DNA of 64,000 nt, taken from positions 124,001-188,000 of the forward strand of contig CP155565.1 in NCBI GenBank assembly GCA_039696685.1, given 5' to 3'. The notes below the pieces were generated by a model that was given only the letters and a program-made list of their open reading frames with translations, had not been told where the DNA came from and searched no databases. Below, in pieces: positions 5,712 through 60,152 of this stretch; the first letter of the stretch is position 1, and every line of letters begins with the position of its first letter. The DNA comes from Vibrio sp. CDRSL-10 TSBA (GTDB lineage: Bacteria; Pseudomonadota; Gammaproteobacteria; Enterobacterales; Vibrionaceae). The translations under genes were made by a program, and so were the position numbers.

Positions 5712-7269
5712 TTACTGCGGTGGCGCGTAACCGAGGCGCATTCCGCCCCAGTGACGGCCGTTCACGTAAACCGGTACCGAGATATCGTGCATCACTTCTC
5801 CGGTGTCGCGCTTATAAGTTTGCAGCAGCATGGTTTGCTGATGCTGGCCGCATCGCATGCCGACCCGGTCTGAAAAGATGCGTTTGGTGCGGTTGCCCAC
5901 CATATCCTGCTGTTGGTTGCCGGTCAGTGGCTGGCAGAACTTATTATTGTGAGTCGGGACGTAACCATGGTCGTTGGTCGCAATGGCATACACCATCTCT
6001 GGCCGCCGGCTCAGAACCGGCTCCTGGAGGGCAGGCAGTACCGAATCGCAGTATTTATCAAATGCGGTCTGATATTTGGCTGGCTGGGTGTTGCCAACGG
6101 GCTGGTGCTGGCGGTCAAACAAGGCCTGCTGCGATATCACACCACTGGTGATGTCCTGCTCGAATTTTTCACCCACCGCCGTCGCCAGCGCCGAGGCCAG
6201 TTCATAGAAAGGCCGGTGCATGGATTGCGGATAGTGTTCGACCAGGACCGCGTTACTGTGTTCGGCAAGTTGCATTAAATGTTCTGCTTCGGTCTGTAGT
6301 TCGAGCAGTTCGTGATCACTGGCCGACAGTTTCCTGCTGGCTATGGGTAATGGCACGGGCGATCTGACGCAGGCTCTGTTCATTACTGGCCACGTCGTCA
6401 CTGATGGCGCTCATCTGGCTCTCGACCTGTTGTGACTGGCTGGCAATGGTCTCCAGCCGTTGGCTGACACTTTCAACCCGTGCGACACCTTGTGTCACAT
6501 TCGCTGCCACTTCTCCTATTGACTGGGTCACCTGCCGGGTCTGAGCCAGGATCTCTGCAACAATCTCTGACACTTCCTCGGTACTGCGCGCAGTACGCTC
6601 TGCCAGGTTACGCACTTCATCAGCGACCACGGCAAAGCCGCGTCCGCTTTCTCCGGCACGTGCTGCTTCAATCGCGGCGTTCAGAGCCAGCAGGTTGGTC
6701 TGAGCGGCAATACTTTCAATTACTTCGACCACGGTTTCGATACGCTCAACCTGAGATTCCAGGCTCTGGATCTGCGCCACTGAGTCTGCTGTCTGTGAGC
6801 TGAGTTGCTGCATACTTTGTACGGCTTGATCTAGCTCTGCCCGTCCTTCCTCACTGGTCGCCCGCATCACTTGAGTGGCCTGCAGGGCTGAGTTAGTGTG
6901 TGAGGCGCTGACGGCCAGCGTGTCAGTAATGGCTTCTGAGCTGTCAGAAATCCGTTCTATTGATGTCACCTGACGCGAGGTTTGCTGTTTAACGGTGTCA
7001 ATGGCGTACGACACTTTGGCGGCGCTAACCGCATTCTGGTTCAGTTCGGTGGCTATCTGCGCGGCGACCGGATCGCTGCCGTCCATGGAATGGATGCTTT
7101 TCTGGTTGGGATGGCGCTGCTTTAGCTGCCACGGAGCAAGGCAGAGCGCGACAGCGCTGCCAAGCACGATCATTAGCGCACTGCTGAGACCGAGCCATTG
7201 TCCGGCTGCGGCCGATAGCAATGCGCACAGAGCGATCGCTAAGCCTAAACGTTGTTGAGTCGATAACAT
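5712..7269 (-). CDS. Methyl-accepting chemotaxis protein with C-terminal sensor domain (frameshifted)
   Basis: About 518 residues. Two hydrophobic segments near the N-terminus are followed, with no periplasmic domain, by a cytoplasmic signalling hairpin with the CheA/CheW-contact tip (VIESIAAQTNLLALNAAIEAARAGE...GFAVVADEVRNLAERT). After the hairpin comes a region of about 200 residues containing AIATNDHGYVPTHNNKF, GNRTKRIFSDRVG and HDISVPVYVNGRHWGGMRLGY. This has the look of a Cache-like small-molecule domain, here placed after the signalling domain. The frame breaks at 6329-6333; removing one T from GTTTC joins the parts as SQQELSASDHELLEL. AGGACG precedes the ATG. Confidence 0.85.
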
Positions 7270-7458
7270 ACTTCGTCCTAATCATTATTATTGTGTTTCG
7301 TTTGTTGGACTATAACGTGATTAATGTGCCGGAAGCGGTGAGCTTGTGCGGGCTTTCACTAAAGTCTGATGGTGAGCTTGGCTGAAATATGCTGAGAATG
7401 CGGCGCAGTTTGCACTCTGAACGGGGAGTTTAGGGGAGGGGCATGCGAAAATAACGCT

Positions 7459-7482
7459 CGCGGCGGACCTGAGCCCGCCGCG
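7459..7482 (-). terminator. GC-rich hairpin downstream of transporter gene
   Basis: CGCGGCGG (7459-7466) and CCGCCGCG (7475-7482) form an 8-bp all-GC stem. On the minus strand ATTTTC follows. It lies 27 bp past the stop of the minus-strand transporter gene. Confidence 0.6.
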
Positions 7483-57036: not shown

Positions 57037-57713
57037 GCAAACACCTGTCATTTCAGCTCAATCATTATCCAAAGTAGTCTCCACCAATCAGGAGCAATTA
57101 ACAATCCTTAAAGAGGTGAATCTGCAGATTCATCAGGGAGAAAGTGTCGCCATTGTCGGTACTTCAGGGGCGGGTAAATCGACTCTGATGACTCTGCTTG
57201 CTGGTTTAGATACCCCAAGTGAAGGAGAAGTTCACTTACTCGGGCAGGCTCTTTCTGCCCTGGATGACGAAGCGCGGGCCGCGATCCGCAGCGAATCGGT
57301 CGGATTTGTTTTTCAAAGTTTTCTGCTTATTCCCAGCCTGACAGCGCTGGAAAATGTCACTTTGCCCTGTCTGCTCAAAGGCGAGGCCGAAGACAAAGAA
57401 ACGTGCGACCGCATTGCTCGCGTCAGTCGGGCTGGAACATCGCATTCACCATTCGCCTGGTCAGTTATCCGGCGGTGAGCAGCAGCGGGTCGCGCTGGCA
57501 CGGGCGTTTATGATTGGTCCGCAAGTGCTGTTTGCTGATGAGCCGACCGGTAACCTGGATCAGGAAACCGCTGCGAAGGTGATTGATCTGCTGTTCGATC
57601 TTAACAGTGAACATGGCACCACGCTGATCTTGGTGACTCATGACCCGAAACTGGCGGCACGTTGTCAGCGTCGTTTCCATATGCAGGCAGGCATGCTGGA
57701 GGAGCGCACATGA
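57035..57713 (+). CDS. ybbA: ABC transporter ATP-binding protein YbbA (frameshifted)
   Basis: 225 residues after repair. MacB/LolD-type ATPase: Walker A GTSGAGKST, Q loop VGFVFQSFLLIPSLTALENV, signature LSGGEQQRVALARAF, Walker B VLFADEPTGNLD, His switch VTHD. The frame breaks at 57398-57402; removing one A from GAAAC gives EDKERATALLASVGLEHR. It shares its last bases (ATGA) with ybbP, so the two are coupled. The divergent tesA-ybbA-ybbP arrangement is the same as in E. coli. Confidence 0.92.
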
Positions 57714-60152
57714 ATCATGATTCGGCCCCGGCGCTCAATCGCCGGCTCATTCGCTGGAGCCTCAGCGAAATCCGCCATGGTCAGTTGTGGCCGATTTCAG
57801 TCGCGCTGACCCTGATCATTGCCTGTGTGTTCGCTCTGACAGCCTTGGCCGGACGAATGGAGCAGGTGGTCGTCAAACAGGGTAAAGATGCCCTCACGGC
57901 CGACAGCGTGTTTGTGTCGGCCAATCCGATACCGGACGCCTTAACCCAGCTTACCCAGCAGCAGGGCCTGGCTACTTCAGGCATGACCCGTTTTCGTACC
58001 ATGGCATTCAGTGACAGCGGTATGCAGCTAATTACAGTGAAAGCGGTGGACAGCCAGTATCCGCTGCGCGGTGAAATGCAGCTGTCAGACGGTGAGCAAA
58101 CTTATTCATACGTTAAGCCAGGCCAGATTTGGCTTGATGAACGTATTTTCTCTCAGCTTGGCGTTGAGATTGGCGATCAGATTACTGTTGGTGACGCGGA
58201 TTTTGTTGTCAACGGACGCATTGTTGAAGAACCGGGCCTGAGCTTTAACCCGTTCCAGCAAATGCCATCTGCTTTCATTCACCAGCAGGATGTCGAGCGT
58301 ACCGGTGCCTTGCAACTAGGCAGTCGGGTCCGCTTCAGCTTATTTATCAATGCGGACTCCCATCAGGTTGAGCAGCTCAAATCTGCCGTCGAGCTCTCAC
58401 CCAGTGATCGCTGGCTTGATCAGAACAGCGCCAGCCGCACCAATGAGGTGTTTGAACGCACGGAGCAGTATTTGTCACTGACGGTGGCAATTGTGATCAT
58501 CATGGCTGCTACGACCCTGGTACTGACTTGTCAGCACTATGTCTCAACCCGGGTTCGCACCATTGCCATGCTCAAAAGCCTGGGTGCGAGTAAACACTGG
58601 ATTCGGCGCTGGTTATCACTGCAGGTGCTGATGCTGCTCGCGTTTGCTTCGGTAATGGGCATAGTGATTGGCATCGGTCTGGAATATCTGCTGCGGGTGC
58701 CGCTGGTGGATTTGTTGCCCAATCCGTTACCGGGCTATGGTATTACCCCCGCACTGGTGGCTCTGGTTTCGAGTGTGTTGATTGCGGTACCTGCGTTGGG
58801 GATCCCGCTCGGGCACTTGCTCAGTGTCAGCGCGGTCAGTGTGATGCAACCTGCCCAAAAGCAGAGTCGTAAACGCTGGAATATCGCTCTGATTCTGGTG
58901 CCCTTAGTACCGATGTTGCTGGTCTACTGGCAAAACCGCCTGGTGTGGATCGTTCTGGCCGGTATTGTGGTGTTGTTTGCCGTTCTTGCGGTGTTGAGTG
59001 TCGCGATTACCCGCCTGCTCGCCAGGCTGCCTCTCAATACGTCAATGAAGCTGGCGTTAAGCCGTATTAACCGTTCCGGCACGGCGACAGGGATCCAGTT
59101 TGGCGCACTGGCGCTGTCGCTGATGTTGTTGGCGGTAATGTGGCTGGTGCGTACCGATTTGTTGTCAGACTGGCAGCGAACTCTGCCACCGGACGCGCCA
59201 AATGCGTTTGCGCTTAACATTGCCGAGTATGAAAAGGATGCTTATCTTGCGACGCTGGATGAAGCCGGGATTGCCCGTTTCGCAGGCGTTTCCAATCATT
59301 CGCGGCCGTCTGACCGAAATCAATGGCGTCGATGCCAAATCTCAGGCTCAGGGCGAAGAAGGGTCTGATGCACTGCGTCGTGAGCTTAATTTTACCTGGG
59401 GTGACAGCCTGCCAGAGTACAATGAGGTGCTATCCGGTCAGTGGACCAAGACCAATGGCGTCTCGGTTGAAGAGGATGTGGCGCGCGATCTTGGACTTAA
59501 GATCGGAGATACCCTGACGTTTGTCATAAACAGTCAGCGGTTTGAAGCTGTGGTTAATACCATTCGCCATGTGGAGTGGCGCGATATGAAGCCCAACTTC
59601 TATTTTATCTTCACGCCGGATGTGATGCGCGATATTGCCGGCAGCTGGCTGGTCAGTTTCCGGGTAGAAGCGAAAAACGATCCATTGCTTAATCAGCTGT
59701 CGCGCAGTCATCCGACGGTCAGTCTGCTCGATATTCGCTCGATGGGGGCCAAGATCCAGGATTTGCTGACGCAGATCGTCTGGTCGATTACCGTGTTGGC
59801 GGCTTTGGGTGTTGTCGCAGGGATCTTATTGATCTTCACGCTATTGCGACTCAGTTTGAGTCAGCGCCAGCAGGAGATTCAGCTCTACCGCACTCTGGGT
59901 GCCAGTCGCAAGCGGGTCACACGTACCATTTGGGCAGAATATGGCCTGATGGCGCTGGTTGCCGGCCTGGTTGCCAGCCTCAGCGCTGACGTCGTTGTCG
60001 CCAGTGTGATGAAATTTGGCTTTGATCTGACGCCATCGGTGCATTTTATGCTTTGGCTGATGCTTCCGTTTGTCACGTTTTGCACATTGGCGTTGGTGGT
60101 CAGCAGCCTGATCAAGCGGCTGTTAATCCCTATAAATAAAGCGTTTAACTAA
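57710..60152 (+). CDS. ybbP: ABC transporter permease YbbP (frameshifted)
   Basis: 813 residues after repair. FtsX/MacB-like permease with ten predicted helices: N-terminal helix (PISVALTLIIACVFALTALAG), periplasmic MacB-PCD-like domain (LSDGEQTYSYVKPGQIWLDERIFSQLGVEIGDQITVG), three helices, a second periplasmic domain, and C-terminal helices with YRTLGASRKRVTRTIWAEY. It pairs with YbbA; with TesA nearby, a role in moving lipids or hydrophobic compounds has been suggested but is unproven. The frame breaks at 59277-59281; removing one T from GTTTC gives GIARSQAFPIIRGRLTEING. Start ATG overlaps the ybbA stop. Confidence 0.9.

Follow-up and report, generated by a model that had tools for sequence, protein, structure and literature searches.

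Introduction

Why should the conserved genes in one stretch of a Vibrio genome be broken in their reading frames again and again, and at the same short motif? The question is raised by a segment of 64,000 nucleotides from Vibrio sp. CDRSL-10 TSBA (contig CP155565.1, positions 124,001 to 188,000; this whole stretch is hereafter called the window), in which a preliminary description had noted 22 interrupted genes, each apparently restored by the removal of a single A or T from GAAAC or GTTTC. Its proposal was that the extra letters are consensus errors at GAAC/GTTC sites modified by a Dnd-type phosphorothioation system. Here, we analyze the breaks in the window and in two larger samples of the same genome, and conclude that they are very probably assembly consensus errors at phosphorothioated GAAC/GTTC sites and not mutations. 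The earlier proposal is supported by a dnd gene cluster in the same genome, by the fraction of sites affected and by the bases that flank them.

Sequencing errors linked to DNA modification have been described before. The nanopore errors of native Salmonella Cerro 87 DNA flag 3.9% of GTTC and 4.4% of GAAC sites in the wild type, and deletion of dndC lowers the flagged GAAC to 0.6% and renders the flagged GTTC undetectable (PMC9069010). Nanopore errors of Listeria at GCAGC/GCTGG are reported to persist after polishing and to be greatly reduced by whole-genome amplification; four of the five affected strains carry a particular defence system, and the authors call the mechanism unclear (PMC10687267). 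In the open-licence PMC literature, outside which most subscription journals lie, we found no paper on phosphorothioate-caused insertions or deletions (indels) in assemblies.

The breaks and their motif

The breaks were located by tblastn of relatives' proteins onto the window, a break being the point where the reading frame must change. References chosen by synteny covered 25% of the window by themselves, and the addition of stretches from more relatives raised this coverage to 69%. All 22 coordinates of the preliminary description are indeed GAAAC or GTTTC, and its tally of the base preceding GAAAC (A in 15 cases, C in 4, G in 3 and T in none) is correct. A +1 frame change was recovered at 17 of these sites, four of them backed by 27 to 37 concordant references each; an added local search gave +1 at 15601 and 16462 and a gap of -2, which yields the same frame as +1, at 24320. 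The relatives' proteins therefore place the frame change at 20 of the 22 sites, although the references are not unanimous at 19011, 42805, 53440 and 57398, where a minority gives a different gap (Table 1). The claim that a single base repairs every break is less firmly borne out at 22380 and 28397, both in Cache/CHASE-GGDEF genes, where the references reach one side only and the repair is backed by domain halves lying in adjacent frames. As for the list itself, every entry stands at the motif, but the list is incomplete: two more breaks, both +2, occur at GAAAAC (1595) and GTTTTC (4015).

The source genome comprises 4.90 Mb in two contigs; among named matches, those closest to the gcvP of the window come from Vibrio, with identities reaching 88%. 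The same test was repeated on two samples of 200 kb each from the large contig (sample A, C2:207001-407000, and sample B, C2:2944001-3144000). Together with the window these gave 283.7 kb of aligned sequence and 105 break calls, of which 102 were kept after the removal of two calls in a transfer RNA array and one call that repeats the 57398 break in antisense. The motif lies within 8 bases of the break interval in 96 of the 102, and these 96 consist of 93 changes of +1, two of +2 and one of -8, the last in the same frame as +1. Random intervals of equal width drawn from the aligned sequence, likewise extended by 8 bases, contain the motif in only 6.1% of 20,000 draws (p ~1e-108). Among the six kept calls that lack it, two derive from one open reading frame (ORF) of 72 amino acids at two places and one from an antisense ORF over ribosomal genes; the others are a window call at 36728, just upstream of a start codon, and calls at 65950 and 177312 of sample A. 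One motif call, at 116501 of sample B, likewise derives from an antisense reference ORF.

Long-read indels often fall in short A/T runs, and the possibility that a base caller simply erred in a certain context or at homopolymers, with no modification involved, has to be weighed against these figures. All A3/T3 contexts were therefore counted on equal terms, with no priority given to the motif. G-A3-C occurs inside 94 of the 102 break intervals where 4.4 are expected, whereas the eight other A3 contexts together account for 13 occurrences against 28.3 expected; with a margin of 3 bases the corresponding figures are 90 against 1.7 and 2 against 10.9. By the criterion of the preliminary description, breaks just as numerous at other short A/T runs would refute it, and in fact the other A3 contexts are no commoner in break intervals than chance.

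The same caller, applied to seven relatives (602 kb aligned, 25 calls), gave no +1 call at GA3-5C/GT3-5C, though the platforms on which these relatives were sequenced are unrecorded here. In none of the seven does DndC exceed its family cut-off, one of them (G008) having a single weak match. The controls are not devoid of length differences at runs: G007 and G009 contain -1 calls close to a GA3-5C/GT3-5C run, two in total, and long T runs of G054 account for two +1 calls, of which one is flanked as G-T6-C, a point in favour of ordinary error. All of these look like ordinary homopolymer differences, and other control calls arise from ORFs flanking ribosomal RNA (rRNA) genes. Two further considerations, developed below, pull in opposite directions: most dnd-carrying Vibrio genomes that were sampled are clean, so that the sequencing method must matter, and the affected sites almost entirely avoid a preceding T, which is frequent before intact GAAC. 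On balance, we give unmodified base-caller error only a slight chance of being the cause.

The dnd cluster

A whole-genome search for dnd genes, which the preliminary description had recommended, found both dndBCDE and dndFGH. They lie in a 20-kb stretch of the large contig (L086, in G000:C2) that encodes DndF, DndG, DndH, DndE, DndD, DndC and DndB, all with PADLOC model matches. Identity to the E. coli B7A proteins is 66% for DndB, 68% for DndC and 64% for DndE. DndC is also 80.5% identical to that of Aliivibrio wodanis, whose plasmid pAWOD_2 carries dndBCDE and dptFGH with their relative order preserved. An intact cysteine desulfurase, IscS, scores above its cut-off at G000:C2:767878-769089. 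E. coli B7A possesses the GpsAAC/GpsTTC motif system (PMC9069010), and the 64-68% identity of DndB, DndC and DndE to their B7A counterparts, taken with the motif of the errors, suggests that the present system would share this GAAC/GTTC specificity. It is because the breaks occur at the probable sites of a sulfur-marking system encoded by the same genome that they are almost certainly errors of reading.

The cluster is itself affected. Compared with their A. wodanis and E. coli homologues, dndD and dndH each lie in two pieces, and both breaks are +1 changes at GTTTC. In this the cluster differs from those of A. wodanis and E. coli B7A, the latter compared over the dndBCDE stretch only. Annotation pipelines could, on account of these two breaks, call the defence system defective.

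The place between dndH and dndE is occupied by an ORF of 192 amino acids without a Pfam match (L086:8434-9012) and a second member of the DndB family, which has a match to DpdB (L086:9036-10187). The same place holds a hypothetical and a DGQHR gene both in A. wodanis and in Pseudoalteromonas shioyasakiensis A316 (CP076682.1), which has the same dnd cluster and was found by a DndC search of plasmid records. The cluster also contains a methyltransferase-like ORF with a weak Pfam match (L086:15514-17541); the protein encoded at the corresponding place in A316 is annotated as a phosphorothioation-associated putative methyltransferase.

The choice of sites

For the analysis of site choice, the 96 motif calls were joined by three window sites added by hand from the tblastn and local searches. 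The resulting 99 sites comprise 96 of 818 G-A3-C runs, 2 of 219 G-A4-C runs and one call outside this tally, which covers runs near aligned sequence; in the figure of 96 of 818, the motif takes priority where one break interval contains several runs. The same aligned sequence holds 2,162 intact GAAC/GTTC sites, so that 4.4% are affected. The earlier remark that only a minority of GAAC/GTTC sites is hit is thus confirmed, and the proportion is in line with published maps of modified sites. A map by EcoWI-seq found 12% of GAAC/GTTC sites modified, the same ones in independent transformants, with A or C preferred at position -1 of phosphorothioated GAAC, T or G preferred at +1, and C at -2 and G at +2 enriched (PMC9521924).

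The affected sites display much the same preferences. In the GAAC orientation, A or C stands at -1 in 77% of the affected sites and in 45% of the intact ones (p 7e-10), G or T at +1 in 71% and 48% (p 1e-5), and G at +2 in 51% and 37% (p 0.008). The avoidance of T at -1, absolute among the 22 sites of the preliminary description, is nearly so in the wider set, where T precedes 2 of the 99 affected sites as against 37% of the intact GAAC. The combined effect is considerable: 15% of AGAAC followed by G or T are affected, compared with 0.3% of TGAAC. The published preference is therefore matched at three of four positions, the exception being C at -2 (PMC9521924).

These figures also bear on the main rival explanation, in which base methylation (for example N6-methyladenine, m6A, made by an uncharacterised methyltransferase with a GAAC-containing motif) causes the same error. 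The methyltransferase-like ORF in the dnd cluster might be thought to favour it. Methyltransferases, however, usually modify nearly all their sites, and here only 4.4% of GAAC are affected, with a soft flanking bias. A precedent exists in the motif-bound nanopore consensus errors of Listeria strains with a methyltransferase-encoding system, but those errors are described as mismatches, indels not being the source (PMC10687267). In addition, the errors recur in a second Vibrio and in a Pseudoalteromonas assembly that both carry dnd. We accordingly regard methylation as improbable.

Mutation and slippage

Could the genes be truly broken? The extra letters are, after all, present in the assembly, and real frameshifts might be expected of a decaying or hypermutable genome or of mutation hotspots at phosphorothioate sites. 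The preliminary description had judged that housekeeping genes such as gcvP, glyA and secD would hardly all be dead, and the larger samples strengthen this judgement. In addition to these genes and gcvT, the genes read as broken in the same way include rpoA, rpsK, rplO, rplF, rplE, rplP, rplD and groEL (one reference each), which encode RNA polymerase alpha, the ribosomal proteins S11, L15, L6, L5, L16 and L4, and GroEL (the names being those of the intact homologues in the relative G009). The phosphoenolpyruvate carboxylase gene is broken twice, and intact copies of the broken genes are present in relatives. Real mutation would require RNA polymerase alpha, six ribosomal proteins, GroEL, secD, gcvP, dndD and dndH to be dead simultaneously. 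At 0.35 sites per aligned kb, it would also require some 1,700 lesions genome-wide (an extrapolation), nearly all of them +1 and at a single motif. Since essential genes are among those broken, the breaks are not biology, and true mutation is very unlikely indeed. The listed completeness of the genome is 95.9% and its listed contamination 4.55%, odd values for an assembly of two contigs; false gene breaks could explain them.

Programmed ribosomal or transcriptional slippage at GAAAC would reconcile the extra letters with functional proteins, and A3 runs can be slippery. Nevertheless, the genes of relatives cross the same places without a change of frame, and at the A316 sites the sister strain has one base fewer; moreover, the sites are spread over unrelated genes. 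Of the explanations considered, this one has the most negligible probability.

Recurrence in other assemblies

If the breaks are consensus errors at phosphorothioated sites, other dnd-carrying assemblies offer a comparison, and two of them contain the same error. In A316, dptH is broken by a +1 change at GTTTC, and dptG has a gap of -11 (the same frame as +1; one reference) with GTTTC within the interval. Relative to SDCH90, its sister strain, A316 has one or two more bases at 43 places in 86 kb, of which 13 are at the motif. The ORFs of the sister, 79 kb in all, contain 22 differences that change the frame and in which A316 is the longer; 14 of these, in a list read by eye, are at GAAAC/GTTTC; by a script count, SDCH90 has GAAC/GTTC at 10 of those 14. 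The other 8 of the 22 have compensating neighbours. None of the 4 cases in which A316 is the shorter is at the motif in the same 79 kb. At the affected sites A at +1 is absent (0 of 13, against 36%). Among the 24 listed plasmid records with a full-length DndC match, the SDCH90 plasmid does not appear.

Two features of the A316 megaplasmid deserve mention in their own right: most of its uncompensated frame-changing differences lie at GAAAC/GTTTC, and it has no listed coding genes at places where the sister has intact ones, for example the glycogen genes.

Among 148 genomes of the Vibrio group, 22 have a DndC above the cut-off. From each of ten of these, besides the source genome, 40 kb were sampled, calls with intervals of at most 60 bases being reported. 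One of the ten, Vibrio G148, gave three calls, all mainly +1 and all with the motif inside the break interval. Another 200 kb of this genome, of which 25 kb were alignable with additional relatives as references, gave two clean +1 calls at the motif and an unclear one (gap of -31), so that in total 5 of 6 calls are +1 at the motif. The dndC gene of G148 itself lies in pieces (L250, G148:C2:658001-678000). Within the genomes sampled, the error was seen only alongside dnd.

A reference-free scan for displaced open frames was also used; gene overlaps score in it too, and it separates affected from clean genomes in aggregate only. Applied to G058, it scored 2 of 113 G-A3-C runs, and 1 of 262 in a further 100 kb.

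Table 1. Frame breaks at GAAAC/GTTTC and longer runs in the window (positions of the window) and in the dnd cluster (positions of L086, G000:C2)
Position	Strand	Change	Gene	Support
1595..1600	.	+2, GAAAAC	gene with 354-amino-acid homologues in G054 and G064	outside the list of 22
4015..4020	.	+2, GTTTTC	gene with 210-amino-acid homologues in G054 and G064	outside the list of 22
6329..6333	.	+1	methyl-accepting chemotaxis protein	tblastn
8732..8736	.	+1	YidE/YbjL-type transporter	tblastn
15601..15605	.	+1	phospholipase A (PRK10763-like), near 3' end	local search
16462..16466	.	+1	phospholipase A (PRK10763-like), near 5' end	one reference
19011..19015	.	+1	secD	+1 in 4 of 6 references
22380..22384	.	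break	diguanylate cyclase, between Cache and GGDEF halves	halves in adjacent frames
24320..24324	.	-2 (frame as +1)	LysR-type regulator	one reference, 27% identity
28397..28401	.	break	CHASE-GGDEF gene, within GGDEF domain	weak GGDEF tail (E 0.045), displaced frame
31775..31779	.	+1	gcvP	37 concordant reference proteins
35977..35981	.	+1	glyA	27 concordant reference proteins
37251..37255	.	+1	gene with weak PuuR-type regulator match	36 concordant references
38051..38055	.	+1	gcvT	36 concordant references
40009..40013	.	+1	trypsin-like protease	one reference
41372..41376	.	+1	GGDEF gene	two references
42805..42809	.	+1	cyclic-di-GMP phosphodiesterase	+1 in 2 of 3 references
44482..44486	.	+1	inosine/guanosine kinase	15 concordant references
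45912..45916	.	+1	creA-like gene	one reference
47144..47148	.	+1	gene whose scanned upstream piece (46211-46720) has no NCBIfam match	tblastn
49094..49098	.	+1	2OG-Fe(II) oxygenase	tblastn
53440..53444	.	+1	gene with weak GGDEF-type matches	+1 in 4 of 5 references
57398..57402	.	+1	ABC transporter ATPase	+1 in 3 of 4 references of main cluster
59277..59281	.	+1	MacB/FtsX-type permease	13 concordant references
L086:7441		+1, GTTTC	dndH	A. wodanis, E. coli homologues
L086:11450		+1, GTTTC	dndD	A. wodanis, E. coli homologues

Discussion

The sequence of events that we envisage begins with a GAAC/GTTC-type phosphorothioation by the products of dndBCDE, for which IscS would presumably supply the sulfur and dndFGH would be the restriction partner. 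DndCDE would insert a sulfur into the backbone between the G and A of GAAC and between the G and T of GTTC. Of these sites only a minority would be modified, and the flanking bases would have a part in their selection. If a long-read method, most likely nanopore, is then applied to native DNA, the modified linkage may distort the signal or the dwell time, and the caller would add one A or T too many, or rarely two. The phosphorothioation of the affected sites, the platform and the signal mechanism are parts of the scheme that we infer. Because most molecules presumably carry the mark at an affected site, neither depth nor polishing with the same reads would remove the error. Other frame breaks are scarce, and this suggests that the long-read chemistry was a good and recent one.

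Several observations weigh against this reading. C at -2, a published preference, is not enriched at the affected sites (34% against 30% of intact sites, p 0.44), and in A316 the bias at -1 is weak, T standing there in 3 of 13 cases. Four 16S and 23S rRNA sets of the source genome itself (L108, L112, G000:C2) contain 175 GAAC/GTTC sites, none of them affected, whereas the context-specific rates predict about 7 for independent sites; in a frame-free test of the aligned rRNA stretches, none of 60 motif occurrences was longer than the references. The shortfall is not strong, since the four copies are near-identical and their sites hence not independent, and the unaffected rRNA genes may reflect either low modification or chance. 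The dnd clusters of E. coli in RefSeq (60 rows listed from 206 genomes, 10.7 kb) include no single-piece match longer than the query. Assemblies rich in frameshifts are excluded from RefSeq, a possible source of bias in this set. Finally, in the nine other dnd-carrying Vibrio genomes no motif break was found by alignment in 9.9-18.8 kb each, where the rate of the source genome would predict 3 to 7. That nine such assemblies are clean implies that dnd alone is insufficient and that the sequencing method must matter; this is as expected if the error requires both dnd and the sequencing of native DNA without short-read correction.

What we describe is a one-base insertion variety of modification-mediated sequencing error, and it recurs in two other assemblies. 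It resembles the case of Salmonella Cerro 87, where native-DNA base-call errors at GAAC/GTTC depend on dndC; the Salmonella data, however, are read-level error statistics on a known reference (PMC9069010), whereas here the error lies inside finished assemblies and is visible from the sequence. The equal figure of 4.4% in the two studies may be a coincidence, as the measures differ. With the Listeria errors it shares the binding of consensus errors to a motif and their survival in assemblies, but those are mismatches associated with a methyltransferase system (PMC10687267), and in the present case a suspected backbone mark, at about 4% of GAAC, is accompanied by a frame-breaking insertion of one base. 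A backbone mark that inserts bases would need a base-caller model of its own. The EcoWI-seq map agrees with our sites in its partial modification and in its preferences at -1 and +1, and differs in its preference at -2 and in being a direct enzymatic mapping in another genus (PMC9521924).

If this explanation is correct, the frame-broken genes of the assembly, dndD and dndH included, are intact in the cell, and an excess of frame breaks at GAAAC/GTTTC would be a simple diagnostic of the error in a dnd-carrying assembly. We consider it reasonably probable that dnd-carrying long-read assemblies hold false pseudogenes that quality filters mistake for contamination or poor assembly, and that the +1 shifts at GAAC/GTTC in public assemblies constitute a partial map of modified sites, which could be mined for the flanking preferences of uncharacterised Dnd systems. 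Studies of gene loss, essentiality and the integrity of defence systems in dnd-carrying genomes would then be affected, and the site preferences of Dnd would be obtainable from data already deposited.

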